Source of the DNA: Bradyrhizobium commune | GTDB taxonomy: Bacteria > Pseudomonadota > Alphaproteobacteria > Rhizobiales > Xanthobacteraceae | Length of the DNA: 64,000 nucleotides | Assembly: GCF_015624505.1 (NCBI RefSeq) | Contig: NZ_CP061379.1 | Coordinates: forward strand, 7,129,001-7,193,000 | Direction: 5' to 3' | In this document: piece by piece, positions 8,423 through 64,000 of the stretch | How the letters are laid out: each line of letters starts with the position of its first letter | Position numbering within the stretch: position 1 is the first letter of the stretch | The notes under the pieces: generated by a model | Seen by the model: only the letters and a program-made list of their open reading frames with translations | Told to the model about the DNA's origin: nothing | Database searches by the model: none | Made by a program: the position numbers and the translations under genes

Positions 8423-8428
8423 CGATAC

Positions 8429-8539: not shown

Positions 8540-8639
8540 TGTAATGCGGAAACGCCCGGCAGTGAGCGGTTGAATTTCCCGCCGCCCTGTTCCATGAAGC
8601 TATTCAACCGATCGGTCCATCTCCAGGGAGAAACGAAAA

Positions 8640-41016: not shown

Positions 41017-41030
41017 GGCCGCGGTCTCCC

Positions 41031-41053
41031 ACCTCTCCCCATCGGGGAGAGGT
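41031..41053. repeat. Short hairpin, family F
   Basis: ACCTCTCCCC-ATC-GGGGAGAGGT, a perfect 10-bp stem in the gap between the DppC-like and DppF-like genes. In mRNA of the operon it would form a stable stem-loop. Confidence 0.7.
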
Positions 41054-41091
41054 GTGGCACCGACGCCGCGGCTAGTTGTGTCGCTCTCATC

Positions 41092-41994: not shown

Positions 41995-42010
41995 CGCCGC
42001 AATTTCCATC

Positions 42011-42132
42011 GTCGTCCCGGCGAAGGCCGGGACCCATACTCACGAAAGATAGTTTGGCGAAGACCCGTAGTTACCATCTCGTCCCACAACCACGTCCTGG
42101 GGTTATGGGTCCCGGCCTTCGCCGGGACGACA
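42011..42132. repeat. Dispersed palindromic repeat, family B
   Basis: Inverted arms GTCGTCCCGGCGAAGGCCG and its complement at the right end, as in the copy at 5258-5390. It lies inside the importer operon between the two permease genes. Confidence 0.85.
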
Positions 42133-42156
42133 CTGAATGTGCGGCACCTCATCCCG

Positions 42157-43110: not shown

Positions 43111-43124
43111 TGCTCTTCTTCCTT

Positions 43125-43283
43125 CCCTCTCCCCTTGTGGGAGAAGGTGGCGCGCAAGCGCCGGATGAGGGGTTGTTTCCGCGGATGATATTGCATCGGC
43201 CGAGAGGTCCGCATTCGCGGAGAGAGACCCCTCACCCGGCTTCGCTTGCGCGAAGCCACCCTCTCCCACAAGGGGAGAGGGTG
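43125..43283. repeat. Dispersed palindromic repeat, family F (long form)
   Basis: CCCTCTCCCCTTGTGGGAG at the left, its inverted copy CTCCCACAAGGGGAGAGGG at the right, with inner GCGCAAGCG/GGATGAGGGG arms. It fills the gap between the substrate-binding protein and the first permease gene and could attenuate read-through between them. Confidence 0.82.
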
Positions 43284-43303
43284 CACTGTTCGTGTGGCGC
43301 GAG

Positions 43304-44965: not shown

Positions 44966-45190
44966 TACTTCAGTCCTTTTCCGGCTTTCGATGACTAATT
45001 TTGATGCAAACGTATGCAATGGCTATGCCAATGGGGACGCTTATTCCGCGAATTGCCCCTGCGACGACAAGTCCTTGTGATCGCGCGTACGCATAGGCGC
45101 CGCGCTGCCTATTCTGGCATCAAGATTGCAGGTTTGGCCTCGAATTCTCCCTTGAGTTTTGCCTTTGACTTTTCCTTGGAGCTTTGGGCC

Positions 45191-46937: not shown

Positions 46938-49172
46938 CTACTTCGTCAGCAGCGCAAACGCCCCGGTCCAGCCCTCCGGCGGTGGATCGAGCTGGAAATC
47001 CTTGATGCGCGCTTCGTAAAGCTTGAACAGCTTTTCCAGCGTGTCGGCGTCCTCGCTCTTGCGGCCGCGTTCGATCGCGTCCAGTGCGCCCTGCCAGTCG
47101 CGGCTGCGGTAGCAAGACAGCATCTCGATGGTGATGTTGCGCAGGCGCTGGAAGGCGGCCGAATGCATCACGTCCTCGCGGCCGGCGATCGCATAGATCA
47201 CCTCGGGCTCGCTCTTGCCCTTGACCATGATGAAGTCGAGCTCGAGGATCGCGAACTTGTCCTTGGCGGCAAGCGCCGTTCGCGAACCGACGATGATCGG
47301 AAAACCGTATTCCTTGGTCTGGCCTTCCAGGCGCGAGGCAAGGTTCACGCTGTCGCCGAGCACCGAATAGTTCTTCTTCAGGTCGGAGCCCATGTTGCCG
47401 ACCACGCCGATGCCGGTGTTGAGACCGATGCCGACATTGAGCGGGATGTAGACATGGCCGCCGTCGGCCGCCTCCTGCTCGCGCGCCTTGTTGACCACGT
47501 CGATCTTCTCCAGCATCTGGATCGCGGCCTCGCAGGCGTTGACCTCGTGCTCGGCATCGTCGAGCGGCGCGTTCCAGAACGCCATGATGGCGTCGCCCAT
47601 GTACTTGTCGACGTAGCCCTTCTCTTCGATGATCACGTCGGTGAGCGGCGTCAGGAAGCGGTTCATCAGCGCGATCAGCCCTTGCGGATCGTGCTTGTAA
47701 CTCTCCGAGATCGTGGTGAAGCCGCGCACGTCGGAGAACATGATCGTCATCTCGCGTTCCTCGCCGCCGAGCACGACCTTCTCCGGCGACTGCGCCATCT
47801 GCTCGACCAGAACCGGCGACATGTATTGCGCGAAGATGCCGCGGATCTCCTTGCGCTGCCGCTGCTCGCGCACGAAGCTCGCGAAGATGAAGGTCAGGTA
47901 GATCGCGGTGGTCGACAGCAGCGGATAGGTGAAGTCGATCAGGTAGCGGTACTGCGCGTAAAAGAACCAGGACGTGCCAACCAGCACGGCGGCAAACATC
48001 GCACCCGCGAGCACCAGGCGCACCGGTCCGAGATTCGGCGTGAAGATGATGACGAGAAGGCCGATGATGAGGGCGGCGAGCAATTCGACGCCGAGCGCGT
48101 AGTTCGGCTGCGAGATCACCGCGCCGCTCAGCACGCTTTCGAGCACCTGAGCGTGGATCTCGACGCCCGGCATGGCCCGGGACACCGGCGTGGTCTTGAT
48201 GTCGTTGAGCCCGACCGCGGAGGTGCCGATCAGCACCAGCTTGCCGGCGATCTTGCTCGCCGGCACGGTGTTGTCGAGCACGTCGGCGGCCGAGACGTAG
48301 ATCGAGGGATCATGTGGGGCGTAGTGCACCCAGAGCTGACCGTTCTTGTCGGTCGGAATCTCGACGCCCTTGAGCCGGATCGCCCGCACGCCGGTCTTGT
48401 CGGTCCTGACCAGCAACGTCGGCGTGCCGGTGATGACGCGCAGGATCTCGAGGCTGAGCGAGGGCATGATATTGTCTTGCGCTCGCATGATCATCGGCAC
48501 CCGCCGGATCAGGCCGTCGCGCTCGGTCCGGATCGTGAACAGGCCGCGGCCGGCGGCGACCTTCTCGATCACCGGCACGTTGCGCAAGAGGCCGGGGAAT
48601 TCGAACAGGAACTTCTCGGCGTTCTCTTCGCCGACCGTCGCGACGCCGGTGAAGGGAAGCGTCTTGTCGAGCTCGGAGCCGACCTCCGGCTGTCCCGTCT
48701 CGCCCAGCACGACGCGCGAGCGCCTGATGGCGTCACTGAGGATCTGGTCGTTGCTCGGCAGCTCGCGCAGCCTGGTGCGGGTGGCATCGTCGAGATAGCG
48801 CATCTGGCCGGCGACCAGATCCGGATTGAGCCTGTCGGCCTCGGAGAACACGACGTCGAAGCCGATCGCGACCGCGCCGTTGCCGGTGAGGTTGATGATC
48901 ATGTCCGCGATCCGCGTCCGCGGCCACGGCCATTGGCCAAACCTGGCAAGGCTCTTGTCGTCGATGTCGATGATGGTGACCGGCCGGACCCCCTTCTTGT
49001 CGCGCGGGTCGATCAGCTGGAACATGTCGAAGGTGCGCAGCCGCAGCTCCTGGACCGGCGGCGGATCCCAGACGCGCAGGCCGGCAAACCCGATCAGCAG
49101 CACGAGGCAGACCATCCGCGCAAAGCCGAATTTTCGCGCGAACCAACGCCGGAGGATCTTGAGGCGCTTCAT
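46938..49172 (-). CDS. CHASE2-domain adenylate cyclase
   Basis: This is a 744-residue membrane signalling enzyme. It has an N-terminal transmembrane helix (about residues 19-34), an extracytoplasmic CHASE2 sensor domain (about residues 42-340, with VTIIDIDDKSLARFGQWPWPR), three transmembrane helices (about 350-440), and a class III cyclase domain. The metal-binding Asp residues are in MFSDVRGFT and YMGDAIMAFW; Lys in VDKYMGD matches adenine specificity, and LGDSVNLASRLEG supplies the transition-state residues, so an active adenylate cyclase is expected. It starts 116 bases after the giant secreted protein on the same strand with no clear terminator between them. CHASE2 and FecR domains tend to be neighbours, in my recollection. 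Confidence 0.93.
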   Translation of the reverse strand: MKRLKILRRWFARKFGFARMVCLVLLIGFAGLRVWDPPPVQELRLRTFDMFQLIDPRDKKGVRPVTIIDIDDKSLARFGQWPWPRTRIADMIINLTGNGAVAIGFDVVFSEADRLNPDLVAGQMRYLDDATRTRLRELPSNDQILSDAIRRSRVVLGETGQPEVGSELDKTLPFTGVATVGEENAEKFLFEFPGLLRNVPVIEKVAAGRGLFTIRTERDGLIRRVPMIMRAQDNIMPSLSLEILRVITGTPTLLVRTDKTGVRAIRLKGVEIPTDKNGQLWVHYAPHDPSIYVSAADVLDNTVPASKIAGKLVLIGTSAVGLNDIKTTPVSRAMPGVEIHAQVLESVLSGAVISQPNYALGVELLAALIIGLLVIIFTPNLGPVRLVLAGAMFAAVLVGTSWFFYAQYRYLIDFTYPLLSTTAIYLTFIFASFVREQRQRKEIRGIFAQYMSPVLVEQMAQSPEKVVLGGEEREMTIMFSDVRGFTTISESYKHDPQGLIALMNRFLTPLTDVIIEEKGYVDKYMGDAIMAFWNAPLDDAEHEVNACEAAIQMLEKIDVVNKAREQEAADGGHVYIPLNVGIGLNTGIGVVGNMGSDLKKNYSVLGDSVNLASRLEGQTKEYGFPIIVGSRTALAAKDKFAILELDFIMVKGKSEPEVIYAIAGREDVMHSAAFQRLRNITIEMLSCYRSRDWQGALDAIERGRKSEDADTLEKLFKLYEARIKDFQLDPPPEGWTGAFALLTK

Positions 49173-49288
49173 TGTGGTCGGACTTCCTGCCCTGGATCAC
49201 GATTGCCGGGCCCGATCTTGGATCGAAGCCCGGGAAATGACCATGCCCTTGGCGGCAACAGGCGCAGCTTTTTTGGCGCGGCAGGCCC

Positions 49289-52200
49289 TTAGAGAATCCC
49301 GCCGCCCGAATGGTTCGTGATGATGAAGTCGTTGGCGTGCAGATTGCCGGCGACGACGTTCTTCAGCAGGATCGTCTCGTGGTCGTCCAGCGTGACCAGC
49401 GTGTCGGCGTTCTGCTGGGCGATGGTGAGGTCGCTGAACGCATTGATGTTGCCGAACTGGCGCACGTCGATCTTGTCGAGGGTGGTGTCGAAGCCGAGCA
49501 CCGTGTGCTGAATATTATCCGGGGAGGACGTTTGCGAGAACACGAACTGATCCTGCCCGCCATTGCCGTTCAGCGTGTCGCTCGAATGCGTGCCGAACAG
49601 CACATCCTTGCCGCCGGTGCCGACCAGCGAGACCGGTCCCGAGCCGCCCTCGCTGAAGATGAAGTTCACGGTGTCGCTGGCGCCGAAGCTGTCGTTGACC
49701 TTGAACGTAACCATATCCGTCGCCGGCTTGTCTTCTCCCGGATCGTAGGTGATTCCGCTCGCCAGGAAGGTATTGATGTCGCTTAGATTGCCGGCCCCCG
49801 TTTCGGGAGAAACGCTTGATCCCTCAAACTGAGTCGAGGCGCTGAGCGCAAATGCTTCCGATGGCGCCGCGGGATCCTCGTCGGTGATTGCCAAACCAAG
49901 CACGGACGTCGTGCCGTCCGGATTTTCCGACACAGTGAAATGCGTCGTATCGATTTCGGGACCGGCGACCGGATCGATCGTGACGGCATGAGTCTGGGGC
50001 AAGGTCGTCGCGGAGGTATGGCTGCTGTCGACGACGCTCGTTGCAGTCACCGTGAGGTTAAAGCTGCCGACATAGCCGACCGGCGTGGTAAGCGCGAGGT
50101 TGCCGCCGAGATCGGTCGCCTCGATGTGCCAGGTGTTGTTGCTGGCGTCGTAGGCTCCGTAATTGAATTCCGAACCGGCAGGCGCACCCGCAATCGTGAC
50201 GTAGGTGTCGTCGGGGTGCGCGCCGGTCGGGATGGTTACCGTGATCGGAACGTTGATCGCGGTGTGCTCAGGACCTTCCGATTTGGCAATATTGGACAAC
50301 TCGCCGGAACTAAGCCCCAGGAAGCCCTCGATCGAAGCCTGGTACGTAGGGTACGAGCTCAGAAACGCTTCAAAATTCCCGTCGGTCGGGACAATTTGCG
50401 AGTCGTTGACATCGCTGTGCGCGGTCGAGACGATGGCAACCTGACCGGTGGTGCTGGTGTCGCCGAAGCCGTCCTCGAAGCTCTGCACGACCTCGCCGTT
50501 CACGCGGATATTGTCGACAGCCAGGAAGGACGTAACCGCATAGTCCTTCTCGTTCATCACACCCGTGCCGAAGGAGTACGTGCCGTCGGTCTGAACCGTG
50601 TAGGTAAACGTGTGCCAGCCGGTCGAGCCATAGCTTCCAGTCGCCTCGATGTCCGATAACAGGAACGCGGCGCCATTCACGCTGGCGAAGGCAAAGTCGT
50701 TGAACGGCAGATAGTCATCAGTGGTGAAATTCCAATCGAGACTGACGATGTCACCGGCATGCAGCGACAGCGGGGTCACAAGCGCCGCGCCATCCGTGGG
50801 ATAGATGCTCGTGTTCGGTCCAAGCGACAGGACCGGAGCGACGGCAGTTTCGACCTCTGTGGGAGCCGTCACTTCCGTGCCGATCGAGGCGGCCTGGTCG
50901 GACACCGGCGTCGTGCCGCCATGGCCTGCGCCGGAGATGTCGATCGAGACCGCGGAAGAGGTGCTGACCGCACCGGTATAGGTGTTGTCGAGCCCGTGGA
51001 CGTCGAGCGTGCCGGGCGTGCCGCTGAAACCTTCATTCGGGACAAAACGGATCAGCGTGTCGGTGCTCAGCACCAGCGCACTGCTGTCGCTGACGCCGGA
51101 AATATCGACCCACTGATCGGTGCCCGCGATTTCGTATTGCCAGCTGCCCTGATCCGCTGTGGCGTGGTCGGCGCTGACCGCGATGGCCTTGAAGCTCGCG
51201 CCGGCGTCGACATCGTGGAACTTGCCCGCGAAGAGATCGCTGACGGCCGTTCCGGCTGGATCGGTGTCATCGCCACTGACGGAGGTCAGCGTCGCGCCGT
51301 CGAGCGTCGGGGCATCATTGGCGCCGTTGACGTTCACCGTCAGCGTCGCGGTGCCGCTGACGCCGTGCACGTCCGTGGTCTGGACTGTGAACGTGTCGAC
51401 ATAGGAGCCGGTCGACAGCGCGTTGATCGCCGTGGCGTCGGGCACGTAGTCGTAGCTGCCGTCGGAGTTGACCGTCAGCGCGCCGTAATGGCCCGCGACC
51501 GTCGTCGTCGCATGATGGTCCGCATCGAGCACGGTGTAGGTCAGCGACGCCGTCTCGCCGGTGTCGGCATCGGTTCCGGCCAGCTTGCCGGTGAGATCGG
51601 CGAAGCTGTCGGTGACGCCCGTGTCCGTGAGCGTGCCGATGCTGAGATCGGCGAGGGTCGGCGCATCGTTGGCACCGGTGACGTTCACCGTGAATGTCGC
51701 CGTGCCGGTGGCGCCGTGCGCGTCCGTGGTCTGCACCGTGAACGTGTCGACATGAGGCCCCGCCGACAGCGCGTTGATCGCGGTTGCGTCGGGCACGTAG
51801 TCGTAGCTGCCGTCGGAATTGACCGTCAGCGCGCCGTAGTGGCCCGCGACCGTCGTCGCCGTATGGCTGTCGGCGTCGAGCACGGCATAGGTCAGCGTTG
51901 CTGTCTCGCCGGTGTCGGCATCGGTCCCGACCAGCTGGCCAGTGATATCCGAGAAGGTATCGGCCGCAGCCGTATCCACCAGCGGCCCCGTGGTCACCGC
52001 GGCCACGGTCGGCGCGTCGTTCGTGCCGGTGATCGTCACGGTGACCTGGGCCGTGTCGCAACCGCCGTTGTGATCCTTCAGCTCGATGGTGGACATCACC
52101 GTCACGGTCTGGTCTTTGCCGAGGAAGTCGAGCGAGCTGTCGGCGACCGAATAGGTCCAGCCGATCGTGCCGTCGTTCTTGTTGCCGGCCTGCTGGAGCG

Positions 52201-55200
52201 TCAGCGCGTGTTCGAGCGCGGAGATCTCGTCCGGCGTCAGCGTCAGAGCCGTGGTGTGGTCGGCGGCGAGCCCGGTCACATCCTGGTGGGTGATCTTCGC
52301 CGTCGGCCGCTCGGTCAGATCGATGTCGGTGAAATGGATCGTGCCGGTGCCGCCCGACGCCGGGTCGTACGTCGTGGTGGCGCCGGTGGTGTCAGCAAGT
52401 TCGGCGAAGGTCACGCTCGGCGACGCCTCGGCGGCGGTAAAGGCCGGCGCGTCGTCACTGGCGTTGAGCGTGATCAGCGTGCCGCCATGGCCGTCGGTGC
52501 TGCCGGCGAAATGCGCGTTGCTGTAGTCCGCGCCGGTGAGCTTCACCATGATGCTGTGGCCGTAGGCATCGCTGACGACCAGATCGCCGGTTTCGGAATC
52601 GTAGGTCGCCGAGGTGCCGCCATCGAACTTGATGGTCGACAGATCCAGCTTGTCGGTCGCCGCGAAGCCCGCAACCGACCCGCCGAAGCTCGACGTGTCG
52701 ATCCGGAGCTCGGCGCCGTCGCCGCCGAAGGTGATGGTCTGCGACACCGTGGCATTGACGTCGAGCGTCGCATTGGCGTCGATCGTCACCGAGCCGGAGC
52801 CGGACAGCGAGCCGAACACCGACAGCGTGCCGGTGTTGACCTCGATGCTCCCGGTGTTGGTGATGGTGCCCGAGATCGACGCCGTGCCCCAGCTGTCGAT
52901 CTCGTTGGAATTGCTGATGTTGAGCCCAGTCCCGGAAATCGAGGCGCCGTTGAGCAGATCGATCACGCCATCGTTGACGATGGAGGACAGATTGCCGAAC
53001 ACGCTGGTGCCGGAGACCGTCCAGGTGCCGTCCGCCTCATTGTTGAACGTGGCGGTGGCGACCGAGATGTTGCCGTTGATGTCGCCGGTGTTGTTGATGG
53101 TGACATGGCCGCCGCTCTCGGCGATGGCATAGGTCGTCGAGCCGACGGTGCCGGCATCATTGGGCCCGATCGTGCCGGAATTGTCGATCGTCGCCGCGCC
53201 GGTCGTGTTCTCCTGGACGAAGATCGCATAATGGCCGCTGGCGCCGACGACCGAGCCGGTGTTGGTGATATGCGTCGAGCCGGTCGCACTTGCATCGTTC
53301 TGGGTGACGACGATACCAGCCGTTCCCGTGGCGGTGAGGTCGCCGTCATTAAGGATGGTGACGTTGCCCGCGCCGGTCGCCACCACGCCCAGGGCAACCG
53401 AACCTGTGGCCGATCCTTCATTGGTGACGCTGACGTCGCCGCCGCCATGGTCGAAGGCGCCGATCGCGGTGCCGGCGGCGGTGATCGACGACGTGTCGCC
53501 GGTCGAGACGGTGACCTTGCCGATACCCCAGGTGAACGCCTCGATGCCGTAGCCCGCAGCCGCGGTGATCGTCGCATCGCTCGTGACGGTGACGTCGCCG
53601 TAGACCTTGCTGGAGAACTTGCCGTCCTCGCCCGGGTTGTAGCCGGCAACGATGCCGCCCGGCGTCGCGCCGCTCAGGTTCGAAGTCGAACCTGAATGGA
53701 TGGTGCCGTGGGCGGTGACCTGGATCGTGCTGTGCACGCCGCTCGCGATGGAGGTCGCCTCGTTGACTGCGAGGATACCCGAACTGCCGGAAGTGATGGT
53801 GTCGTGATCCGATAGCGAGACGCTGATATTGCCCTGGTCGAGGCTGTAGGCGTCGATGCCGTAGCCTGCCGTACCCGTCACCGACGCGTTGTCGCCGAGC
53901 CAGACACTGACATTTCCGGTGCCGCCGCTCAGCGCCAGGGCTCGGACACCCATCTGGGCACCGACTACGGTGGTGCCGGCGCCATCGTTCACCGTGACGT
54001 CACCGTTGCCGTAGTTGTAGGCATCGATGCCGTGGCCGCCCGCGGCGGTGATATTGGCGTGATTGTTGACGATGACGGTGCCGTTGACGTCTGTATTGGC
54101 GCTGGTCCCGCTGGTGGCGCCGGCATACCCGGCCTGAATGCCCGCCGGCGCGTTGCCGCTCTGGTTCAGGTTACTGCCGGAATTGATCGTCCCGTGCGCG
54201 TCGACCGTGATGGTGCTGTCGTTCGACGCATCGAGCGAGATCGCACGATTGACCGCGATGATGCCCGAGCTGCCCGACGTGACGACGCTGCCGGCCTCGG
54301 TGCTGACGGTCTCGTTGCCGGCGCCATAGCTGCGGGCGCGGATGCCGTAGATCGAGCTTCCCGTGATCGCGCCGCCGGCATCGATGGTGACATTGCCGTC
54401 GCCCTGGGTGGTCGCATCGATACCGTAGGCACCGCCGACGGCGCCGCCGAGCTGGGTGATCGAGATATTGCCGGCATTGGCGGCATTCAGATTCTCGACG
54501 AGGATGCCTTCCGAGTTCGCGCCGGTGCCGGTCGCCTTGCCGGTGAGGTCGTCAATCGTGATATCGCCCGCGCCGGTCGCGCTGTCGCGCAGCGTGATGC
54601 CGTTGCCGGCCAGGCCCGTGATGTCCTTTGTCGCGGTCAACGAGATGTTGCCGGTGCCGTTCTGGGTGACGACGACGCCGTTCGCTGCGCCCTTCAGCGC
54701 GCCGGTGGGCGTCAGGACGATGTTTGCGGATTTGGCGGACGTGCCCCCGGTCGCCGTGAAGTCGAGCGCGTCGTTGCTCGACGTCGTGATGTCGGCCGCG
54801 CCTGTCACCGTGAAGGTGCCGCCGGTCGACGACTGGCCGGTGATGGTACCGGTAAAGCTCTGGCCGGCCACCTTGTCGAGCTGAAGCGTGTCTGTGCCGC
54901 CGGCAAAGGTCACGGTCTGCGCCGTCGCGCCCGCGAGCTCGAGCGTCGCGCTGTCGTCGATCACCAGCGAGCCTGCGCCAGTGAGGCCGCCGGACAGGTT
55001 CAGCGTGCCGCCCTGTACCTCGATGGTGCCGGTGTTGGTGACGGCAGCCGAAACGCTGTTCGCCCCCGACACGCCATAAAGATGGCCGGAATTGCTCAGC
55101 TGGCCACCGTTGATCGCGGAAACATTGGACAGATAGAGCTTTGACGTGCCGTCGACCGTCACCGTGCCGCCGCCATTGGTCACGGTGACATTAGACAGCT

Positions 55201-58200
55201 TCAGGATGCCGCCATTTATCGCCTTGAGATCGGCGGAATTGGTTACGAGCTCGCCGGAGATGTCGAGCTCACCGCCATTGGCCTGGATCAAATGGCTGTT
55301 GGTGATGGTGTGGGGCACGGCGGGATCGATCGTCAGCGTGCCGCCGGTGACGGTGATCGTGCCGGTGTTGGTGATGTCGGCGTCGGTGATGGCGCTCGTG
55401 CCGGTGGATTCCAGCGTGCCGGCGATGGTCATCGTGCCGCCGTCGACGGTCGCACCGGAAAGATCGAGCGTCGAGCCGGACTCGATGGAGACCGCGCCGC
55501 CGGTGTTGGTCACCGTCATCGAGATCAGCTTCAGCGTGCCGTCGTTGATGGCGGCCAGCGTGCCGGTGTTGGTGACAGCCTCGCCGTTGATGTCGAGCTC
55601 GCCGGTGTTGGCCTGAATGGTGCCGCCGTCGTTCGTGATCGCAGCCGCAGGCGTCGTCGCCACCAGCGCCAGCACCCCGCCGATCGCCTCGATCAGATAG
55701 CTGTTCGAGATGTTGGCGTTGGTGATCGTGGCGGAGCCGGAGGAATCGAGCGTACCGGCGACGGTCAGCGTGCCGCCGGTCAGGCTCGCACCGGCCAGCG
55801 TCAGCTTCTTGCTGGCGTCGACCTTGACGGTGCCGTCATTGGTGATCGCCGTGCCCGACACTGTCGCGTCGTTCAGCTTGAGCGTGACGTCGCTCTCGAC
55901 CGTCACGGCGCCCTTGTTCAGCGTCGCATTGCCGTCGATCGTGCTGTCGGCGGTGACGTCGATCGTGCCGCCGGAGGCGCCGCTATAATTGTTGATGGTG
56001 CCGCCGGTGATCTCGGTGCCGGACAGCTTCAGCGTCTGACCGTCGTCGACCGTCACCGTGCCGTTGTTGGTCACGACGTCGTTGAGCAGCGTCGCTGCGC
56101 CGGCGATCTCCAGCGTGCCGCTGTTGGTGACCGGGCCGCCCTTGATCGTGGCGCCGTCCTTGAGCTTGACGGTGTTGTCGAGCTCGATGCTGGCATTGTC
56201 CGTGATCGTCGAGCCCGACACCGTGACGCCGTCCAGCGTCAGCTGGGCGTCGGCGGTCACCGCCGTGACGCTGAGCGTGGCACCGCTATCGATCTTGCTG
56301 GCGCCAGTGACGTCGATTGAGCCGCCACCCTTGACGGCGCCGCCGCTGATCGTAGCGTCGTTTAGGGTCAACGCGGCGTTGGCATCGACGACGAGATTGC
56401 CGCTCGAATTGTCGACCGTCGAACCCTGGTCGATGGCGAGCGCGCCATTGGCGAGCACCTCGATGGTACCGGCATTCTTGACCGTCTCATCGTCCAGCGC
56501 GTTGCCGGTGCCACTGACCTTGAAGGCCGCATTGTTCTTGAGAGCACCGTTGCTCAGCACGGCGTTGCCGGTCAGGTCGATCTCGCCGTTGTCGGTCACC
56601 GTGCCGACACCGGTGATGGAGGCGCCGTTGACCGTCAGCTTGCCGGTCGCATCGACCGTGACATTGCCGGTATTGGTGACGACCGAACCCTGGTCGATCG
56701 TCAGTGCGCCATTGGCCAGCACCTCGATCGTACCGGTCGAGGCATTAGTCACTGTCTCATTGTCCAGCGCGTTGCCGGTGCCACTGACCTTGAAAGTGGC
56801 GTTGTTCTTCAGGGCGCCGTTGCTCAGCACCGCGTTGCCGGTCAGGTCGATCTCGCCATTGTCCGTGACCGTGCCGACGCCGCTAATGGACGCGCCGTTG
56901 ACCGTCAGCTTGCCGGTCGCGTCGACCGTGACATTGCCGGTATTGGTGACAACCGAGCCCTGGTCGATCGTCAGCGCGCCATTGGCCAGCACCTCGATCG
57001 TGCCGGTGCTCGCGTTCGCGACGGTCTCATTGTCCAGCGCGTTGCCGGTGCCACTGACCTTGAAGGCCGCATTGTTCTTCAGGGCGCCGTTGCTCAGCAC
57101 GGCATTGCCGGTCAGATCGATCTCGCCGTTGTCGGTCACCGTGCCGACACCGGTGATGGACGCGCCGTTGACCGTCAGCTTGCCGGTCGCGTCGACCGTG
57201 ACATTGCCGGTATTGGTGACAACCGAGCCCTGGTCGATCGTCAGCGCGCCATTGGCCAGCACCTCGATCGTGCCGGTGCTCGCGTTCGCGACGGTCTCAT
57301 TGTCCAGCGCGTTGCCGGTGCCACTGACCTTGAAGGCCGCATTGTTCTTCAGGGCGCCGTTGCTCAGCACGGCATTGCCGGTCAGATCGATCTCGCCGTT
57401 ATCGGTCACCGTGCCGACGCCGCTGATGCTGGCGCCATTGACCGTCAGCTTGCCGGTGGCATCGACCGTGACGTTGCCAGTGTTGGTGACGACCGAACCC
57501 TGGTCGATCGTCAATGCACCGTTCGCCAGCACCTCGATGGTGCCGGTGCTCGCATTCGTGACTGTCTCGTTGTCCAGCGCGTTGCCGGTGCCGCTGGCCT
57601 TGAAGGCCGCGTTGTTCTTGAGAGCACCGCCGCTGAGCAGGGCGTTGCCGGTCAGGTCGATCTCGCCATTGTCCGTGACCGTGCCGACACCGGTGATGGA
57701 CGCGCCGTTGACGGTCAGCTTGCCGGTCGCGTCGACCGTGACGTTGCCAGTGTTGGTGACGACCGAGCCCTGATCGATGGTCAGCGCGCCGTTGGCCAGC
57801 ACCTCGATCGTACCGGTCGAGGCGTTGGTGATCGTCTCATTGTCCAGCGCGTTACCGGTGCCACTGACCTTGAAGGCCGCATTGTTCTTGAGAGCACCGT
57901 TGCTCAGCACGGCGCTGCCGGTCAGGTCGATCTCGCCGTTGTCGGTCACCGTGCCGACACCGGTGATGGACGCGCCGTTGACCGTCAGCTTGCCGGTCGC
58001 ATCGACCGTGACATTGCCGGTATTGGTGACGACCGAACCCTGGTCGATCGTCAGGGCGCCGTTGGCCAGCACCTCGATGGTGCCGGTCGAGCTGTTCGTG
58101 ATCGTCTCATTGTCCAGCGCGTTGCCGGTGCCGCTGACCTTGAAAGCCGCATTGTTCTTGAGAGCACCGCCGCTGAGCACGGCGCTGCCGGTCAGGTCGA

Positions 58201-61200
58201 TCTCGCCGTTGTCGGTCACCGTGCCGACACCGGTGATGGACGCGCCGTTGACCGTCAGCTTGCCGGTCGCATCGACCGTGACATTGCCGGTATTGGTGAC
58301 GACCGAACCCTGGTCGATCGTCAGCGCGCCATTGGCCAGCACCTCGATCGTGCCGGTGCTCGCATTCGTGATCGTCTCATTGTCCAGCGCGTTGCCGGTG
58401 CCACTGACCTTGAAGGCCGCATTGTTCTTGAGAGCACCGTTGCTCAGCACGGCGTTGCCGGTCAGGTCGATCTCGCCGTTGTCGGTCACCGTGCCGACAC
58501 CGGTGATGGACGCGCCGTTGACCGTCAGCTTGCCGGTCGCATCGACCGTGACATTGCCGGTATTGGTGACGACCGAACCCTGGTCGATCGTCAGGGCGCC
58601 GTTGGCCAGCACCTCGATGGTGCCGGTCGAGCTGTTCGTGATCGTCTCATTGTCCAGCGCGTTGCCGGTGCCGCTGACCTTGAAAGCCGCATTGTTCTTG
58701 AGAGCACCGCCGCTGAGCACGGCGCTGCCGGTCAGGTCGATCTCGCCGTTGTCGGTCACCGTGCCGACACCGGTGATGGACGCGCCGTTGACCGTCAGCT
58801 TGCCGGTCGCATCGACCGTGACATTGCCGGTATTGGTGACGACCGAACCCTGGTCGATCGTCAGCGCGCCATTGGCCAGCACCTCGATCGTGCCGGTCGA
58901 GCTATTGGTGATCGTCTCATTGTCCAGCGCGTTGCCAGTGCCACTGACCTTGAAGGCCGCGTTGTTCTTCAGGGTACCGCCGCTCAGCACGGCGTTGCCG
59001 GTCAGGTCGATCTCGCCGTTGTCGGTCACCGTGCCGACACCGGTAATGGACGCGTCATTGACCGTCAGCTTGCCGGTCGCATCGACCGTGACATTGCCGG
59101 TATTGGTGACAACCGACCCCTGGTCGATCGTCAGTGCGCCATTGGCCAGCACCTCGATCGTGCCGGTGCTCGCATTCGTGATCGTCTCGTTGTCCAGCGC
59201 ATTGCCGGTGCCGCTGACCTTGAAGGTGGCGTTGTTCTTCAGGGTACCGCCGCTCAGCACGGCGTTGCCGGTCAGGTCGATCTCGCCGTTGTCGGTCACC
59301 GTGCCGACACCGGTGATGGACGCGCCGTTGACCGTCAGCTTGCCGGTCGCATCGACCGTGACATTGCCGGTATTGGTGACGACCGAACCCTGGTCGATCG
59401 TCAGCGCGCCATTGGCCAGCACCTCGATCGTGCCGGTGCTCGCATTCGTGATCGTCTCATTGTCCAGCGCGTTGCCGGTGCCACTGACCTTGAAGGCCGC
59501 ATTGTTCTTGAGAGCACCGTTGCTCAGCACGGCGTTGCCGGTCAGGTCGATCTCGCCGTTGTCGGTCACCGTGCCGACACCGGTGATGGACGCGCCGTTG
59601 ACCGTCAGCTTGCCGGTCGCATCGACCGTGACATTGCCGGTATTGGTGACGACCGAACCCTGGTCGATCGTCAGCGCGCCATTGGCCAGCACCTCGATCG
59701 TGCCGGTGCTCGCATTCGTGATCGTCTCATTGTCCAGCGCGTTGCCGGTGCCACTGACCTTGAAGGCCGCATTGTTCTTGAGAGCACCGTTGCTCAGCAC
59801 GGCGTTGCCGGTCAGGTCGATCTCGCCGTTGTCGGTCACCGTGCCGACACCGGTGATGGACGCGCCGTTGACCGTCAGCTTGCCGGTGGCGTCGACCGTG
59901 ATGTTGCCCGCGTTGGTGACCGCGGAGCCCTGATCGATGGTCAGCGCGTCATTCGCCGAGACCTCGATCGTGCCAGTGGACATATTGGCGACGATTTCGT
60001 TGGCCAACTCCGACACGCCCTTGACGTTGACCGCGCCCGAATTGTTCAGCGTGCCATTCTCGATCAGGCTGGTGCCGTCGAGCTCGAGCGTACCTAGGAT
60101 CGTCACCGTGCCGCCGTCGACGGTCGCGGTGTCGACGATCAGCGTCGTGCCGGCGTCGGCCTTCAGCGTGCCGCCGGCATTGTGGATCTCGGCCAGCGTC
60201 TTGAGCGTGCCGCCGGAGAGCTCGATCGTGCCGGAATTGGTGATCGTGGTGCCGCTGGCGAAATCGCCGCCGCCTGCGAGCGTCAGATACCCGGCGTTGG
60301 TGAGCACCGAGGTATCCAGGATCTCCGCCTTGCCGCCGACCGACATGGTGCCGGTCGCGGTGTTGTTGAAGATCGAGTCCGCGCCCATGCTGAGCGTACC
60401 CGCGATCGTCAACGAGCTCTTGTTGTCGACTTCCGGCGGCGGGCCGCCGAAATCGTTCATCGTGATGGAGTTGGCATAGGCCGCGGCGTCGATCGTCACC
60501 GGATAGGACGGCGTCAGGCCGTGCAGCTGATCGGTGATGACGATGACGTCGTCAGTGAGGGTCGGGACCGTCCCGGTTTCCCAGTTCGCCGCGTCCTTCC
60601 AGAAGCCGCCAGGGGGAGCGCCGTCCGTGCTCGTCGCGATCCACACCACGGCAGGCGCGTCGGTACCCGTGATGGTGACGGTGATGGTCTGCTGCGAGAT
60701 CGCATTGTGCTCGTCCGCGACCGTCACGGTGTAGACCAGCGTCAGCACCTCGCCCTTCGGAATGAAGTCGGCGAGGTAGACGGGCAGATCGGCCAGCGAC
60801 CAGTTGATGGTGCCGGTGCCAGTGCCGGTGCTGTCAGAGCCGGTCGCGATCGCAACCGACATCGCTTTTGCAAACGCTGCGAGCGGGCCCGGCGGCACGC
60901 TCCCGTCCGGCAGGGTGGCGCTGGTCAAGGCCACCGACACCGAGTGCGTGTCGGTGAGATCGACATCCTTGAAGGTCAGCGTGCCCGAGGTCGGGACGTC
61001 GGTGGAGAGCGGGCCGCCCGGGACGCTGGTGCCGCCGGAGAAAGTAATGTTCGGCACGCTGGTGGTGATAACCGGCTTGTCGTTGGTGCCGGTCACCGTG
61101 ATGGTGATCGTGACAGGAACCGCTTCAGGGTCGAGCGCGAAATTGTTGTTGACGAGGACCGTGTATGTCAGCGTCAGCGTTTCGCCGTCCGCGAGGAAGT

Positions 61201-62722
61201 CGAAGGCGTGGTCGGGGACCGTGTAGGTCAGGACCGCCGAACCGTTGTTGTTGTTGCCACTGGCGGCGGCGACACCGATCTGGACCTGCGTCGCCGCGAT
61301 GTCCTGCTTCTGGAGCGCGCTGAGCGAGCCGGTGACGTCGTGATGGCTGGCGTCCGTGTAGACGTAGTTCGGTGCGTTAGCGAGGTCGACCGACACCGTC
61401 GGCGAATCGCCCAGGTTCTGGTCGACGAAGGTGATCCGGAAGGAGAACGTGTCGGGACCCACGGTCTCGCCGGTCACGTAATCGAGGTCGGCGGTCGTGT
61501 CCGAATGCTCGGTCAGCGTGAACGCCTGCTTTACATTGCCGCTGAGATCGAGGCTCTGCGCCAGCGGCGGGCCGGGAACGCGGGTGCTGGTCGACGGATT
61601 GTGGCTGGGATCCTGCGATGTCGGCTGACTGGTGTTGGTGTAGGTCGCAGTCGCGGTGGTACCGTTGTCCGTCTTGATCACGACAATGTTGCCGTTCTGC
61701 GTGATCGAGTCGGTGAAGTTGGTGGTCAGCTTGGTGTTGGTGCCGTTGTCGGTGAATTTCAGCGTGAACACGTCGGTGATCAGCTTCTGCACGTCCGGCG
61801 ACAGCAGCGCATTGCTGATCGAGACGTTGCCGCCGCTGATCTGGATCATCTGGCCGGCCTGGTTGACCGTCGCGATCGGCAGCAGCGTCGTCTTGTCGAA
61901 CAGGATGTAGGAGCCGGTGGTGCCGTTCGGCTCGACCAGCACCTGGAAGCTCGCCTGCGGCTGCGGATCGCCGCCGCCGCTAGGTACGACGAAATTGATC
62001 TGGGTCAGCACCGCGGTGCCGCGGATGCCCATGGTGGCGACCGGCGTGTCGATCTTCATGTCGCCGTGCTTGGCGGTTTCACCTGCGACGAAGGTGATGG
62101 TGCCCGCGACCAGGCTGAGCAGCGAGGAATTGTTCGACCCGTTGGGGTCGTAGACCATCTCGTTCAGCACCATCCGCGCGTTGGAGGACAGGCCGAACAC
62201 GGTGCCGTCGATGAAGGTGACGCCGAGCGTTGAGTCCGAGCCGGTGGAAACCACGTCGCCCTTCTCGACGTTGTCACCGTTGTTCAGGATGATCGAGACG
62301 CCGTTGCGGACCGCGGTCGCGCTGCCGACGAGCTTGGTGACGTGGCCGATGACTGCGGCTGCGGCGGCACCGGGCCCCGCCTGCGCGTATTCAACGTGCC
62401 CCGCGAGCGCGTTGACGATGTCGCCGGTGAGATGGGCACCATCGGGCGAGGAAATCGCCGCGCGCTTGTCGCCCCTAAAATAATCGTGAACGACGAACTC
62501 ATGCCCGTCATGGGACAGCACGAGGTCGCTGCCGGCGCGCTTGAAGTCGCCGTTGAAGATCAGGTTGGGATCGGGAACGACGACCGCGCCCTCAGGCACG
62601 TGACCGTGCGCTTTTGCAATGAAGGGCTTGGCGGCGGCCGAATCGATGTGGCCGTCGGCGGACAGGTGAGAACCCTGGCCATCCAAGAAGCTCGCGGCGT
62701 CAAATTTGCCAGCGTAGTTCAA
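49289..62722 (-). CDS. Giant repetitive type I secreted protein with FecR-like domain (putative adhesin)
   Basis: This is a 4477-residue extracellular protein. Residues 1-115 form an N-terminal module without a classical signal peptide (VVHDYFRGDKRAAISSPDG); a five-Ala run follows at 119-123; a FecR-like domain spans about 125-240 (NGDNVEKGDVVSTG, TPVATMGIRGTAV). VCBS/cadherin-like domains lie near 400-690 (GTNDKPV). A beta-helix-like region begins near 700. Thirteen 90-residue repeats fill about 920-2095, followed by more Gly/Thr/Asn-rich repeats to about 3400. VCBS domains lie at about 3560-3810 (GTNDAPTV), with a possible jelly-roll segment near 3970-4080. The C terminus has RTX-like GGKDVLFG and LNGNGGQDQFVF near 4365-4395 and a serralysin-type end, typical of type I secretion. 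The start is a TTG without a clear ribosome site, so the exact N terminus is uncertain. Confidence 0.88.
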   Translation of the reverse strand: MNYAGKFDAASFLDGQGSHLSADGHIDSAAAKPFIAKAHGHVPEGAVVVPDPNLIFNGDFKRAGSDLVLSHDGHEFVVHDYFRGDKRAAISSPDGAHLTGDIVNALAGHVEYAQAGPGAAAAAVIGHVTKLVGSATAVRNGVSIILNNGDNVEKGDVVSTGSDSTLGVTFIDGTVFGLSSNARMVLNEMVYDPNGSNNSSLLSLVAGTITFVAGETAKHGDMKIDTPVATMGIRGTAVLTQINFVVPSGGGDPQPQASFQVLVEPNGTTGSYILFDKTTLLPIATVNQAGQMIQISGGNVSISNALLSPDVQKLITDVFTLKFTDNGTNTKLTTNFTDSITQNGNIVVIKTDNGTTATATYTNTSQPTSQDPSHNPSTSTRVPGPPLAQSLDLSGNVKQAFTLTEHSDTTADLDYVTGETVGPDTFSFRITFVDQNLGDSPTVSVDLANAPNYVYTDASHHDVTGSLSALQKQDIAATQVQIGVAAASGNNNNGSAVLTYTVPDHAFDFLADGETLTLTYTVLVNNNFALDPEAVPVTITITVTGTNDKPVITTSVPNITFSGGTSVPGGPLSTDVPTSGTLTFKDVDLTDTHSVSVALTSATLPDGSVPPGPLAAFAKAMSVAIATGSDSTGTGTGTINWSLADLPVYLADFIPKGEVLTLVYTVTVADEHNAISQQTITVTITGTDAPAVVWIATSTDGAPPGGFWKDAANWETGTVPTLTDDVIVITDQLHGLTPSYPVTIDAAAYANSITMNDFGGPPPEVDNKSSLTIAGTLSMGADSIFNNTATGTMSVGGKAEILDTSVLTNAGYLTLAGGGDFASGTTITNSGTIELSGGTLKTLAEIHNAGGTLKADAGTTLIVDTATVDGGTVTILGTLELDGTSLIENGTLNNSGAVNVKGVSELANEIVANMSTGTIEVSANDALTIDQGSAVTNAGNITVDATGKLTVNGASITGVGTVTDNGEIDLTGNAVLSNGALKNNAAFKVSGTGNALDNETITNASTGTIEVLANGALTIDQGSVVTNTGNVTVDATGKLTVNGASITGVGTVTDNGEIDLTGNAVLSNGALKNNAAFKVSGTGNALDNETITNASTGTIEVLANGALTIDQGSVVTNTGNVTVDATGKLTVNGASITGVGTVTDNGEIDLTGNAVLSGGTLKNNATFKVSGTGNALDNETITNASTGTIEVLANGALTIDQGSVVTNTGNVTVDATGKLTVNDASITGVGTVTDNGEIDLTGNAVLSGGTLKNNAAFKVSGTGNALDNETITNSSTGTIEVLANGALTIDQGSVVTNTGNVTVDATGKLTVNGASITGVGTVTDNGEIDLTGSAVLSGGALKNNAAFKVSGTGNALDNETITNSSTGTIEVLANGALTIDQGSVVTNTGNVTVDATGKLTVNGASITGVGTVTDNGEIDLTGNAVLSNGALKNNAAFKVSGTGNALDNETITNASTGTIEVLANGALTIDQGSVVTNTGNVTVDATGKLTVNGASITGVGTVTDNGEIDLTGSAVLSGGALKNNAAFKVSGTGNALDNETITNSSTGTIEVLANGALTIDQGSVVTNTGNVTVDATGKLTVNGASITGVGTVTDNGEIDLTGSAVLSNGALKNNAAFKVSGTGNALDNETITNASTGTIEVLANGALTIDQGSVVTNTGNVTVDATGKLTVNGASITGVGTVTDNGEIDLTGNALLSGGALKNNAAFKASGTGNALDNETVTNASTGTIEVLANGALTIDQGSVVTNTGNVTVDATGKLTVNGASISGVGTVTDNGEIDLTGNAVLSNGALKNNAAFKVSGTGNALDNETVANASTGTIEVLANGALTIDQGSVVTNTGNVTVDATGKLTVNGASITGVGTVTDNGEIDLTGNAVLSNGALKNNAAFKVSGTGNALDNETVANASTGTIEVLANGALTIDQGSVVTNTGNVTVDATGKLTVNGASISGVGTVTDNGEIDLTGNAVLSNGALKNNATFKVSGTGNALDNETVTNASTGTIEVLANGALTIDQGSVVTNTGNVTVDATGKLTVNGASITGVGTVTDNGEIDLTGNAVLSNGALKNNAAFKVSGTGNALDDETVKNAGTIEVLANGALAIDQGSTVDNSSGNLVVDANAALTLNDATISGGAVKGGGSIDVTGASKIDSGATLSVTAVTADAQLTLDGVTVSGSTITDNASIELDNTVKLKDGATIKGGPVTNSGTLEIAGAATLLNDVVTNNGTVTVDDGQTLKLSGTEITGGTINNYSGASGGTIDVTADSTIDGNATLNKGAVTVESDVTLKLNDATVSGTAITNDGTVKVDASKKLTLAGASLTGGTLTVAGTLDSSGSATITNANISNSYLIEAIGGVLALVATTPAAAITNDGGTIQANTGELDINGEAVTNTGTLAAINDGTLKLISMTVTNTGGAVSIESGSTLDLSGATVDGGTMTIAGTLESTGTSAITDADITNTGTITVTGGTLTIDPAVPHTITNSHLIQANGGELDISGELVTNSADLKAINGGILKLSNVTVTNGGGTVTVDGTSKLYLSNVSAINGGQLSNSGHLYGVSGANSVSAAVTNTGTIEVQGGTLNLSGGLTGAGSLVIDDSATLELAGATAQTVTFAGGTDTLQLDKVAGQSFTGTITGQSSTGGTFTVTGAADITTSSNDALDFTATGGTSAKSANIVLTPTGALKGAANGVVVTQNGTGNISLTATKDITGLAGNGITLRDSATGAGDITIDDLTGKATGTGANSEGILVENLNAANAGNISITQLGGAVGGAYGIDATTQGDGNVTIDAGGAITGSSIYGIRARSYGAGNETVSTEAGSVVTSGSSGIIAVNRAISLDASNDSTITVDAHGTINSGSNLNQSGNAPAGIQAGYAGATSGTSANTDVNGTVIVNNHANITAAGGHGIDAYNYGNGDVTVNDGAGTTVVGAQMGVRALALSGGTGNVSVWLGDNASVTGTAGYGIDAYSLDQGNISVSLSDHDTITSGSSGILAVNEATSIASGVHSTIQVTAHGTIHSGSTSNLSGATPGGIVAGYNPGEDGKFSSKVYGDVTVTSDATITAAAGYGIEAFTWGIGKVTVSTGDTSSITAAGTAIGAFDHGGGDVSVTNEGSATGSVALGVVATGAGNVTILNDGDLTATGTAGIVVTQNDASATGSTHITNTGSVVGASGHYAIFVQENTTGAATIDNSGTIGPNDAGTVGSTTYAIAESGGHVTINNTGDINGNISVATATFNNEADGTWTVSGTSVFGNLSSIVNDGVIDLLNGASISGTGLNISNSNEIDSWGTASISGTITNTGSIEVNTGTLSVFGSLSGSGSVTIDANATLDVNATVSQTITFGGDGAELRIDTSSFGGSVAGFAATDKLDLSTIKFDGGTSATYDSETGDLVVSDAYGHSIMVKLTGADYSNAHFAGSTDGHGGTLITLNASDDAPAFTAAEASPSVTFAELADTTGATTTYDPASGGTGTIHFTDIDLTERPTAKITHQDVTGLAADHTTALTLTPDEISALEHALTLQQAGNKNDGTIGWTYSVADSSLDFLGKDQTVTVMSTIELKDHNGGCDTAQVTVTITGTNDAPTVAAVTTGPLVDTAAADTFSDITGQLVGTDADTGETATLTYAVLDADSHTATTVAGHYGALTVNSDGSYDYVPDATAINALSAGPHVDTFTVQTTDAHGATGTATFTVNVTGANDAPTLADLSIGTLTDTGVTDSFADLTGKLAGTDADTGETASLTYTVLDADHHATTTVAGHYGALTVNSDGSYDYVPDATAINALSTGSYVDTFTVQTTDVHGVSGTATLTVNVNGANDAPTLDGATLTSVSGDDTDPAGTAVSDLFAGKFHDVDAGASFKAIAVSADHATADQGSWQYEIAGTDQWVDISGVSDSSALVLSTDTLIRFVPNEGFSGTPGTLDVHGLDNTYTGAVSTSSAVSIDISGAGHGGTTPVSDQAASIGTEVTAPTEVETAVAPVLSLGPNTSIYPTDGAALVTPLSLHAGDIVSLDWNFTTDDYLPFNDFAFASVNGAAFLLSDIEATGSYGSTGWHTFTYTVQTDGTYSFGTGVMNEKDYAVTSFLAVDNIRVNGEVVQSFEDGFGDTSTTGQVAIVSTAHSDVNDSQIVPTDGNFEAFLSSYPTYQASIEGFLGLSSGELSNIAKSEGPEHTAINVPITVTIPTGAHPDDTYVTIAGAPAGSEFNYGAYDASNNTWHIEATDLGGNLALTTPVGYVGSFNLTVTATSVVDSSHTSATTLPQTHAVTIDPVAGPEIDTTHFTVSENPDGTTSVLGLAITDEDPAAPSEAFALSASTQFEGSSVSPETGAGNLSDINTFLASGITYDPGEDKPATDMVTFKVNDSFGASDTVNFIFSEGGSGPVSLVGTGGKDVLFGTHSSDTLNGNGGQDQFVFSQTSSPDNIQHTVLGFDTTLDKIDVRQFGNINAFSDLTIAQQNADTLVTLDDHETILLKNVVAGNLHANDFIITNHSGGGIL
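56446..59960 (-). repeat. Tandem array of 270-bp units (13 copies) within the giant gene
   Basis: The segment GTVTDNGEIDLTG recurs every 270 bases exactly (DNA anchors at 56611, then every 270 bases to 59851), giving 13 in-frame 90-residue units with no indels. Neighbouring copies are often identical: the units near 56961 and 57231 match over long stretches, those near 59311 and 59581 match, and a two-unit block near 57916-58358 is repeated 540 bases later. Each unit reads as a short parallel beta-helix rung set (LTVNGASITGVG, ALKNNAAFKVSG, GALTIDQGSVVTN). Confidence 0.95.
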
Positions 62723-62861
62723 CCGGGCACCGTATATAGGGTTAATATTTAAATAAGTATCGGCCGCCTAAGCTTGCATAGCATTACCAAGTCCTTAGCG
62801 AAACCATCTATTGCTTGTGTGATTTGGCGTGACCGGGCTGCGGGTGCCCCTGCCCACTCGT

Positions 62862-62976
62862 GTATTCGGCGAGAAAAAGAAATATTCGGTTGAATACATT
62901 CAAGTCAAACCTGGCCTGTTTGCGGGCACTTTACGTCGTTTTAAGTATTCGCGATAAAAACTCTACCATCGAATAC
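62862..62976. promoter_or_regulatory. Cluster of GTATTCG-type motifs
   Basis: GTATTCG occurs at 62862-62868 and 62945-62951, a related ATATTCGG at 62882-62889, and the inverted forms GAATAC at 62892-62897 and CGAATAC at 62970-62976. The last two full sites face each other across 18 bases. The arrangement suggests an operator for an unknown regulator upstream of the giant gene. Confidence 0.45.
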
Positions 62977-63184
62977 TCGTGTCATCTTTCTTTCGTAGTG
63001 CCCCGCAACATACTGCGGCAAATACGGAGCTAAATCTGTGATCCAACTAACAGAACCCATAAAATAGCGGACCGTTAGCCATAAGACGTAGAATCGTCGT
63101 CTCCACAACTTCTGCCTGCAATTGGATCCATTTCGCGGCAGCTGAGGACCTCCGGGCCCAGATTTCTAAAATTTTACGCAGCTT

Positions 63185-63208
63185 GGACAGGCTGAATTGA
63201 GCCTGTCC
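63185..63208. promoter_or_regulatory. Perfect inverted repeat upstream of the peptidase gene
   Basis: GGACAGGCT-GAATTG-AGCCTGTCC, a 9-bp perfect inverted repeat with a 6-base loop, 132 bases before the peptidase ATG. No T run follows, so it looks more like an operator or an mRNA stem than a terminator. Confidence 0.45.
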
Positions 63209-63340
63209 CCCGGTTTTGGGACCCCTGCCGGGCGCGTTAAGCAGAACAAAACGGCCCATCTCGCACTATCTCCGCGAAAGCAACAAAGCCCGGCACGCAT
63301 AGGTCGAGGGGGACCTCGCGAAGCCGGAAAGGGATGTCAG

Positions 63341-64000
63341 ATGGAGACGGCTGCTCACAAGCGCGCCTGGCGCGCCATTCTTTTTCTGTGCGGACTGATC
63401 CTGCTCGGATCGGCCGCCGATCTTCGTGCCGGCACGCTGCTGTCGCCGGGGCCGGGCGTGCTCGTGCGCAAATCCGCCGAGCCGTTCGGCGTGTTCGCCT
63501 TCGCGATTTCCACCGGCAGCCTGCACCAGAAATGGTTCGCGCTGAAGGAGAAGCTCGACGACGACATGGTGCAGCTCGCGCTGTGCGATGGCGATCGCGA
63601 CAATTGCGCCTCGCCCGCAGCCCTCAAGCTGCTCGCCATCGTCGACCAGGCCCGCAGCCGCGACGGCCGCGCGCGGCTCGGCGAGACCAACCGCGCCATC
63701 AACCTTTCCATCCGCGCCGTGGATGACGGTGCCGACGACGTCTGGAGCTCGCCGCTTGCGACCTTCCAGCGCGGCGCCGGCGACTGCGAGGACTATGCCA
63801 TCGCCAAGCTCGCCGCGCTGCGTCTGGCCGGAATTGCTCCTGCGGATCTCCGCATCGTCGTGGTGCGCGACACTCCATCCGGCGAGGAGCATGCGGTCGC
63901 CGCCGCACGGCTCGACGGCCATTGGCTGATGCTCGACAACCGCCGCATGGCGATGGTCGAGGACGATAACGCCCGCACCTACCAGCCGCTGTTCGTGCTG
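63341..64000 (+). CDS. Transglutaminase-like cysteine peptidase, LapG-like (3' end outside window)
   Basis: The frame is open from the ATG at 63341 to the last base (220 codons), so the C terminus is missing. Residues 1-30 look like a signal peptide (AILFLCGLILLGSAADLRAG). The body matches bacterial transglutaminase-like cysteine peptidases (LapG/BTLCP): RGAGDCEDYAIAK carries the catalytic Cys near residue 150, EEHAVAAA the His near 187, and WLMLDNRR the Asp near 200. GAAAGGGA lies upstream of the ATG. LapG cleaves LapA-type adhesins near their N terminus in the periplasm and is inhibited when LapD binds c-di-GMP. Divergence from the giant secreted protein makes that protein the likely substrate. 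Confidence 0.87.
   Translation, partial: METAAHKRAWRAILFLCGLILLGSAADLRAGTLLSPGPGVLVRKSAEPFGVFAFAISTGSLHQKWFALKEKLDDDMVQLALCDGDRDNCASPAALKLLAIVDQARSRDGRARLGETNRAINLSIRAVDDGADDVWSSPLATFQRGAGDCEDYAIAKLAALRLAGIAPADLRIVVVRDTPSGEEHAVAAARLDGHWLMLDNRRMAMVEDDNARTYQPLFVL

Follow-up and report, generated by a model that had tools for sequence, protein, structure and literature searches.

How might a bacterium hold a giant adhesin at its surface, release it, and sense from inside the cell what has become of it? This question is raised by a locus of Bradyrhizobium commune lying in a window of 64,000 nucleotides (the whole stretch analysed here, positions 7129001-7193000 of a one-contig, 7.62-Mb genome), in which the gene for a giant FecR-domain adhesin is followed by a CHASE2 cyclase gene and preceded by a divergent gene for a C93 (LapG-family) peptidase. 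Our tentative answer, which we place a little short of an even bet, is a Lap-like locus in which a PrtD-type pump would export the adhesin, a FecR plug would retain it, C93 would clip it, and CHASE2 would read the plug to set cyclic AMP (cAMP). We observed the genes and their domains, the intact peptidase triad, the gene order, its conservation, and a repeated pairing of FecR with CHASE2 in the window's own genome.

The adhesin, the cyclase and the peptidase

Firstly, the adhesin gene (49289..62722, minus strand) encodes a predicted type I-secreted protein of 4477 residues, as the initial annotation had stated. The FecR-like domain that it had also described (retention-module-like, about residues 125-238; 62009..62350, minus strand) is matched above cut-off by PF04773 over residues 156-238, with 37.2 bits for the first 301 residues and 38.8 bits in a genome search (cut-off 24). 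Within the same 301 residues, the LapA retention model NF033682 gives a remote match to residues 125-189 (E = 4.8e-5). In a search with the first 345 residues, PDB entry 5ix9, titled 'Antifreeze protein', aligns with residues 117-202 (E = 3.2e-5). We take 5ix9 to be the N-terminal region of MpIBP, the ice-binding adhesin of Marinomonas primoryensis; the likeness is one of sequence over residues 117-202, and the window's adhesin differs in having about 115 residues, with an extra module, ahead of it. Since NF033682 and 5ix9 both align there, we regard the FecR domain as the retention-like part, which likely serves to retain the adhesin; the N-terminal retention module announced earlier thus gains support, from NF033682 under its cut-off and from 5ix9. 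The conserved N-terminal module that precedes the FecR domain (about residues 46-109; 62396..62587, minus strand) is covered by no Pfam or NCBIfam match, and a local profile finds it in adhesins of other genera.

Secondly, the gene for a CHASE2 - class III adenylate/guanylate cyclase of 744 residues (46938..49172, minus strand) begins 116 nucleotides after the adhesin stop, directly downstream and on the same strand, as had been described. Both of its domains are recognised (CHASE2, PF05226, 199.7 bits; class III cyclase, PF00211, 73.5 bits), and the catalytic domain aligns with solved adenylate cyclases (best PDB entry 6fht, E = 3.2e-32). Read by eye, the positions that specify adenine presumably hold Lys and Asp; the product would be cAMP rather than cyclic GMP.

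Thirdly, the C93 (LapG-family, BTLCP) peptidase is predicted to be periplasmic. Its gene (63341..64000, plus strand) runs past the window edge, and extension beyond 64000 completes it with a stop 72 bases beyond the window end (64072 in window numbering). By eye, the likely start is the ATG at 63341 and the N terminus reads like a signal peptide. The protein matches PF06035 (55.7 bits, cut-off 27); among solved structures, it aligns with the LapG entries 4u65 (E = 4.2e-9) and 4fgo (E = 1.2e-6) of the PDB. The intact Cys-His-Asp triad noted in this divergent peptidase is present, and it recurs in every one of 148 distinct relatives, a text pattern finding it in 145 and direct reading in the other 3; the GDCED motif is found in 107 of 107 peptidase sequences of the genus.

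Conservation within Bradyrhizobium

We analysed 60 Bradyrhizobium genomes, searching separately for the peptidase, the adhesin N terminus and the cyclase before comparing their positions. The order C93 (divergent)-adhesin-cyclase is intact in 54 of them, in line with the conserved linkage across related genomes that the initial annotation had asked for, and in these 54 the open frames of the adhesin span 1387 to 6088 residues. In 56 of the 60, C93 and the adhesin are divergently oriented. The trio lies on separate contigs in G012, G016, G030, G035 and G045 (G-labels denote genomes, G000 being the window's own, and L-labels DNA stretches), and for G016 the search gave no adhesin N terminus. In G006, a second C93, 46% identical, occurs elsewhere, flanked on one side by a FecR adhesin and on the other by a VCBS protein that has a weak FecR match (18.2 bits, under the cut-off of 24), and near a FecR protein of 235 residues. 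On this stretch (L104:6276-14998), the C93 between the FecR adhesin and the VCBS protein has GDCKS in place of GDCED. No C93 was seen on the stretches carrying the second-copy adhesins, with related N terminus, of G025, G047 and G058, the last of which was not seen on both sides.

A second view is given by the 80 named loci nearest to the adhesin N terminus, nearly all from Bradyrhizobium; the exceptions are two metagenome bins of Alphaproteobacteria and a contig that bears the label Frankia. All 80 share the position of the adhesin's TTG start. In 78, a divergent C93 gene lies no more than 1.5 kb from the adhesin; the other two loci have less than 1 kb of DNA there. The end of the adhesin gene falls within the locus in 54 cases: the next gene is the cyclase in 51 of these, and in the remaining three a cyclase of that strand comes after another 3.7 to 4.2 kb. 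The Frankia-labelled contig (L185, Frankia sp. RB7), whose adhesin N terminus is 88% identical to that of the window, is probably a contaminant.

The probable export pump and the locus in other genera

A PrtD-type type I secretion system (T1SS), which the earlier reading had not recognised, belongs to the adhesin system. Its genes lie in the window 10 kb downstream: an ATP-binding cassette (ABC) transporter of the PrtD type (34890..36638, minus strand; TIGR01842, 731.8 bits, cut-off 510.15) and its partner, a HlyD-family membrane fusion protein (33568..34893, minus strand; PF13437, 71.3 bits). This pair likely exports the adhesin. Against the LssB model (cut-off 693.1), the ABC protein scores 361.8 bits and aligns only from model position 142; it lacks the N-terminal region that LssB-type pumps have. 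All 10 Bradyrhizobium genomes viewed carry the pair on the strand of the cyclase and 3 to 12 kb past it.

A family-level search of 149 genomes, seven of them Bradyrhizobium, found C93 relatives in 57. We sampled 40 C93 stretches, 34 from other genera and 6 further copies in Bradyrhizobium, and an adhesin-like open reading frame (ORF) lies within 8 kb of C93 in 33. The FecR-adhesin type accounts for 16 of the 34 loci of other genera (14 at first, two more on extension). A complete same-strand run adhesin - PrtD-type ABC - HlyD - CHASE2 cyclase is present in 13 of these 16, in seven genera by database label (G164, G124, G104, G163, G185, G221, G123, G115, G102, G136, G169, G208 and G240); the other three run into contig ends. 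In these runs, the ABC homologue comes directly after the adhesin and is 61-76% identical to that of the window, the HlyD homologue being 60-80% identical. Eight of the 13 have C93 as the adhesin's immediate divergent neighbour, and in G102, G136, G169, G208 and G240 a distance of 1.5 to 4 kb separates it from one end of the run; the adhesin frame of G185 is broken into three. The arrangement reaches another family of the class, where L281 carries adhesin - ABC (32% identical) - HlyD-like protein (by eye) - CHASE2 cyclase; no C93 turned up on that stretch.

Other C93 genes of the sample have different company. Longer C93 ORFs (about 330-380 residues) stand beside giant adhesin-like ORFs on L128, L130, L131, L133-L135, L139, L141-L144 and L146, and on the stretches seen these adhesin-like ORFs are without the FecR-type N terminus. 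L128, which combines an LssB-type pump, C93 and an adhesin with T1SS-143 repeats, appears to be a more classical Lap layout within the same bacterial family. Because the family holds such a layout, the window locus would be a sister form that differs in its pump and in having a cyclase.

FecR-CHASE2 pairing and a possible mechanism

Profile searches of the window's own genome returned four CHASE2 and five FecR matches. Three of the four CHASE2 genes come directly after a same-strand FecR gene, with gaps of 116, 62 and 39 nucleotides by first possible start, and the outputs of the three CHASE2 proteins differ: a class III cyclase in two and GGDEF-EAL in one. The chance of two further pairings is roughly one in a million, a post hoc estimate that assumes about 7000 genes. 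The pair from G000:C1 2321178 onward (L235:1318-2520, L231:1471-3813) consists of a FecR protein followed, after about 62 nucleotides, by a CHASE2-PAS-GGDEF-EAL protein, and by its domains is a FecR-CHASE2 pair with a predicted cyclic di-GMP (c-di-GMP)-type output.

From these sequences we infer that the adhesin would be secreted and retained, that C93 would cleave it, and that FecR and CHASE2 would be in contact. After export by the PrtD/HlyD pump, the adhesin would remain in the outer membrane, kept from leaving by its N-terminal FecR plug on the periplasmic side. C93, which likely cleaves the adhesin N terminus, would cut there or at the plug and free the adhesin; the CHASE2 domain would read the plug, and the cyclase would set cAMP to match. 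The signal would run outside-in, with cAMP changing according to whether the plug is present, strained or cut. We prefer this direction over a cAMP-gated release because the FecR-CHASE2 pairing recurs with different outputs. A bolder version, possible but doubtful in our view, makes the adhesin itself a receptor: the FecR plug would be the ligand of CHASE2, anchoring, pull or cleavage would change cAMP, and C93 would reset the system by cutting the plug. If true, the inside-out c-di-GMP/LapD system would have its outside-in counterpart here, and FecR domains would form a class of CHASE2 ligands.

Points against and alternative explanations

Several observations weigh against the plug-reading scheme, and the first concerns the cleavage site. 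LapG cleaves between the two Ala of [T/A/P]AAG, downstream of the retention module, according to the available part of PMC13090378. The five Ala at residues 119-123, in an Ala-rich linker (62354..62368, minus strand), are present in the letters as first noted, and they had been proposed as the place of a LapG site. We analysed 110 N-termini, from the 80 named and 30 unnamed loci, of which 100 were parsed and 10 left out where the text anchor failed; an alignment of N-termini used 30. Five consecutive Ala occur in one of the 100, the window's own. An AA pair is found in the linker of 99 and AAG in that of 13, and [T/A/P]AAG precedes FecR in the linker of four. Within 220 residues downstream of the FecR core, AA occurs in 30 and AAG in six. 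No conserved LapG-type [T/A/P]AAG site thus exists among the 100, either in the linker or after FecR; the Ala-rich linker is general in these adhesins, yet it is not the LapG consensus. The run is not placed as in LapA either, because the retention-like domain comes after it. We reject the five-Ala run as the LapG site on its conservation and its position, and that proposal is not supported.

The remaining points concern the models and the gene neighbourhoods. The match to NF033682 misses its cut-off (23.6 against 50 bits), and AlphaFold2 models of the adhesin N terminus are of low confidence, with a mean predicted local distance difference test score (pLDDT) of 36.6 and 47.5. The peptidase, taken as the protein ending at the window edge, scores 49.3 bits against the LapG equivalog NF045674, whose cut-off is 320, and for the BTLCP relative HvyA it is the capsule, rather than an adhesin, that is under its control, as given in the available part of PMC4241560. 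Seven of the 40 C93 stretches have no adhesin-like ORF within 8 kb (L117, L118, L121, L129, L147, L148 and L149), some of them being short contigs: L118 measures 4.4 kb and L117 starts 1.5 kb before its cyclase. In G006, C93 and the cyclase are direct neighbours, and no adhesin separates them. The fourth CHASE2 gene of the window's genome follows a protein of 227 residues without Pfam match. Among the 29 best loci of the class's other families, a FecR ORF lies directly upstream of CHASE2 in one, three being not assessable; one more locus (L281) has its FecR adhesin some genes upstream, two of the 29 having been viewed further out. A class-wide FecR-CHASE2 rule is not borne out by this set.

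Among the alternatives, the best surviving is an ordinary Lap release, in which C93 would obey c-di-GMP through a divergent LapD-like receptor encoded elsewhere and the cyclase would be a separate sensor kept close by; we consider it unlikely. The closeness of C93 to adhesin-like ORFs in the family sample fits it, as does L128 with its LssB-type pump. DvhD of D. vulgaris, according to the available part of PMC13090378, has no sequence similarity to the periplasmic domain of LapD, and a receptor of that kind would escape PF16448 (LapD_MoxY_N). PF16448 matches occur in 53 of the 60 genus genomes, where the window's own was alone typed: the only such protein found there is a histidine kinase, and not a LapD (LapD_MoxY_N with GGDEF-EAL). 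Against an ordinary release stands the gene order itself. No GGDEF/EAL gene directly follows the peptidase in the window's own genome or in three relatives whose next gene was typed, a LapD/GGDEF-EAL gene in this position being what the initial annotation had said would refute its reading. In other genera, the adhesin-T1SS run ends with the cyclase, and the idea of an unrelated neighbour is therefore weakened.

The inside-out reading comes next and strikes us as more improbable again. Here the cyclase would sense the environment, and cAMP would gate C93, and hence adhesin release, via a further receptor. The tight linkage of the three genes is consistent with such gating, as are the lack of a GGDEF/EAL gene after the typed peptidases and the kinase nature of the only LapD_MoxY_N protein found in the window's genome. 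No typed protein of the locus, however, would carry a cAMP signal into the periplasm. Since CHASE2 is a predicted extracytoplasmic sensor, its natural direction would be inward, and within this genome FecR partners accompany CHASE2 proteins whose outputs differ. The initial suggestion that cAMP controls adhesin release thus finds no support here; the FecR-CHASE2 pairing points instead to the cyclase as a reader of the adhesin. Least probable of all is an effect on expression only, with cAMP controlling transcription of adhesin and pump and C93 doing HvyA-like envelope work unrelated to the adhesin: the HvyA precedent (available part of PMC4241560), the gene arrangement of G006 and the like one of G133 on the stretch seen (its contig begins 1.5 kb before the cyclase) speak for it, but C93 has an adhesin-like ORF nearby in 33 of the 40 stretches, and a Clr-like palindrome has no match in the window, 0.5 being expected by chance.

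Relation to known systems

The plug-reading scheme invites comparison with the LapA-LapG-LapD, BpfA-BpfG-BpfD and DvhA-DvhG-DvhD systems. The window locus shares with them a giant T1SS-type adhesin, an N-terminal retention-type domain and an adjoining C93 (BTLCP) peptidase with conserved triad. It differs in its PrtD-type ABC, the pumps of Lap-type systems being of the LssB/LapB type with an N-terminal C39-like domain; in having no LapD gene seen beside it and no conserved [T/A/P]AAG site; in a peptidase far below the LapG equivalog cut-off; and in the addition of a CHASE2 class III cyclase. Because the LapG equivalog, the retention_LapA model, the cleavage motif, the pump type and LapD all fail to match, we do not file the locus as a Lap system; it would work like one, yet stand as a sister form.

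The closest likeness for the FecR-CHASE2 pair is the Burkholderia BiofilmReg system. There, a LysM-FecR protein lies beside a CHASE2 histidine kinase in a biofilm operon, so that a FecR periplasmic protein next to a CHASE2 sensor, and biofilm, are shared; a related pair is present in P. aeruginosa (all from the available part of PMC5192318). In Burkholderia, according to the same part of that source, FecR is borne by a protein with a complete or truncated LysM, and a kinase serves as output, whereas the window has a giant adhesin and a class III cyclase. Sinorhizobium meliloti offers a second parallel in CyaD1, CyaD2 and CyaK, which share with the window the joining of CHASE2 to a class III cyclase in a rhizobium. 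These cyclases raise cAMP on a signal perceived via the outer-membrane protein NsrA, a plant protein being named as that signal; the available part of the source names no adhesin, T1SS or C93 partner for them (PMC13001267). Among the literature matches listed, no paper dealt with the combination of an adhesin, a LapG-family peptidase and a CHASE2 cyclase, subscription journals lying mostly outside the scope of the search.

A gene set that joins a retention-type FecR domain, CHASE2 and a LapG-family peptidase occurs throughout the sampled Bradyrhizobium genomes and in sister genera, and it likely lets the cell both shed its anchor and report the state of that anchor inside. The question of the CHASE2 ligand and that of a cAMP-linked adhesin switch become directly testable in legume symbionts.

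Further features of the locus

Whole-protein family scans assign the adhesin shaft to VCBS/cadherin-like repeats, and a tandem array of 270-bp units (56420..59978, minus strand) counts 13.2 copies with 92% matches. The C-terminal 115 residues (49292..49636, minus strand) form a type I secretion-like end, and a local profile recovers this stretch in relatives. The RTX-like C terminus that had been described is weaker than claimed: a text pattern finds about two RTX-like nonapeptides near the start of this end, and scans of the whole 4477-residue protein, in which the C-terminal piece was not scanned by itself, gave no RTX family match. Upstream of the adhesin, a block at window positions 62782-62822, 60-100 bases before the start, has about 95% mean identity across 80 aligned upstream regions and is a candidate promoter or operator.

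Elsewhere in the genome, where third-position GC is low, a remnant resembling the adhesin N-terminal module, with an internal stop, is separated by 7 kb from another C93 gene (L012:931-1296 and 8012-8560; G000:C1 5878927-5886478). Between the cyclase and the T1SS genes, the window carries a dipeptide ABC transporter cluster (37381-45019); it was not found on the stretches of G053 and G055, and it separates cyclase and pump in eight of the ten Bradyrhizobium genomes viewed. On its other side, the locus is bordered by an LprI-domain protein that follows the peptidase here and in G021 (L007:3171-4295, or 64171-65295 in window numbering), its place next to the peptidase being taken in other relatives by a pyrroloquinoline quinone (PQQ)-dependent dehydrogenase or a binding protein.

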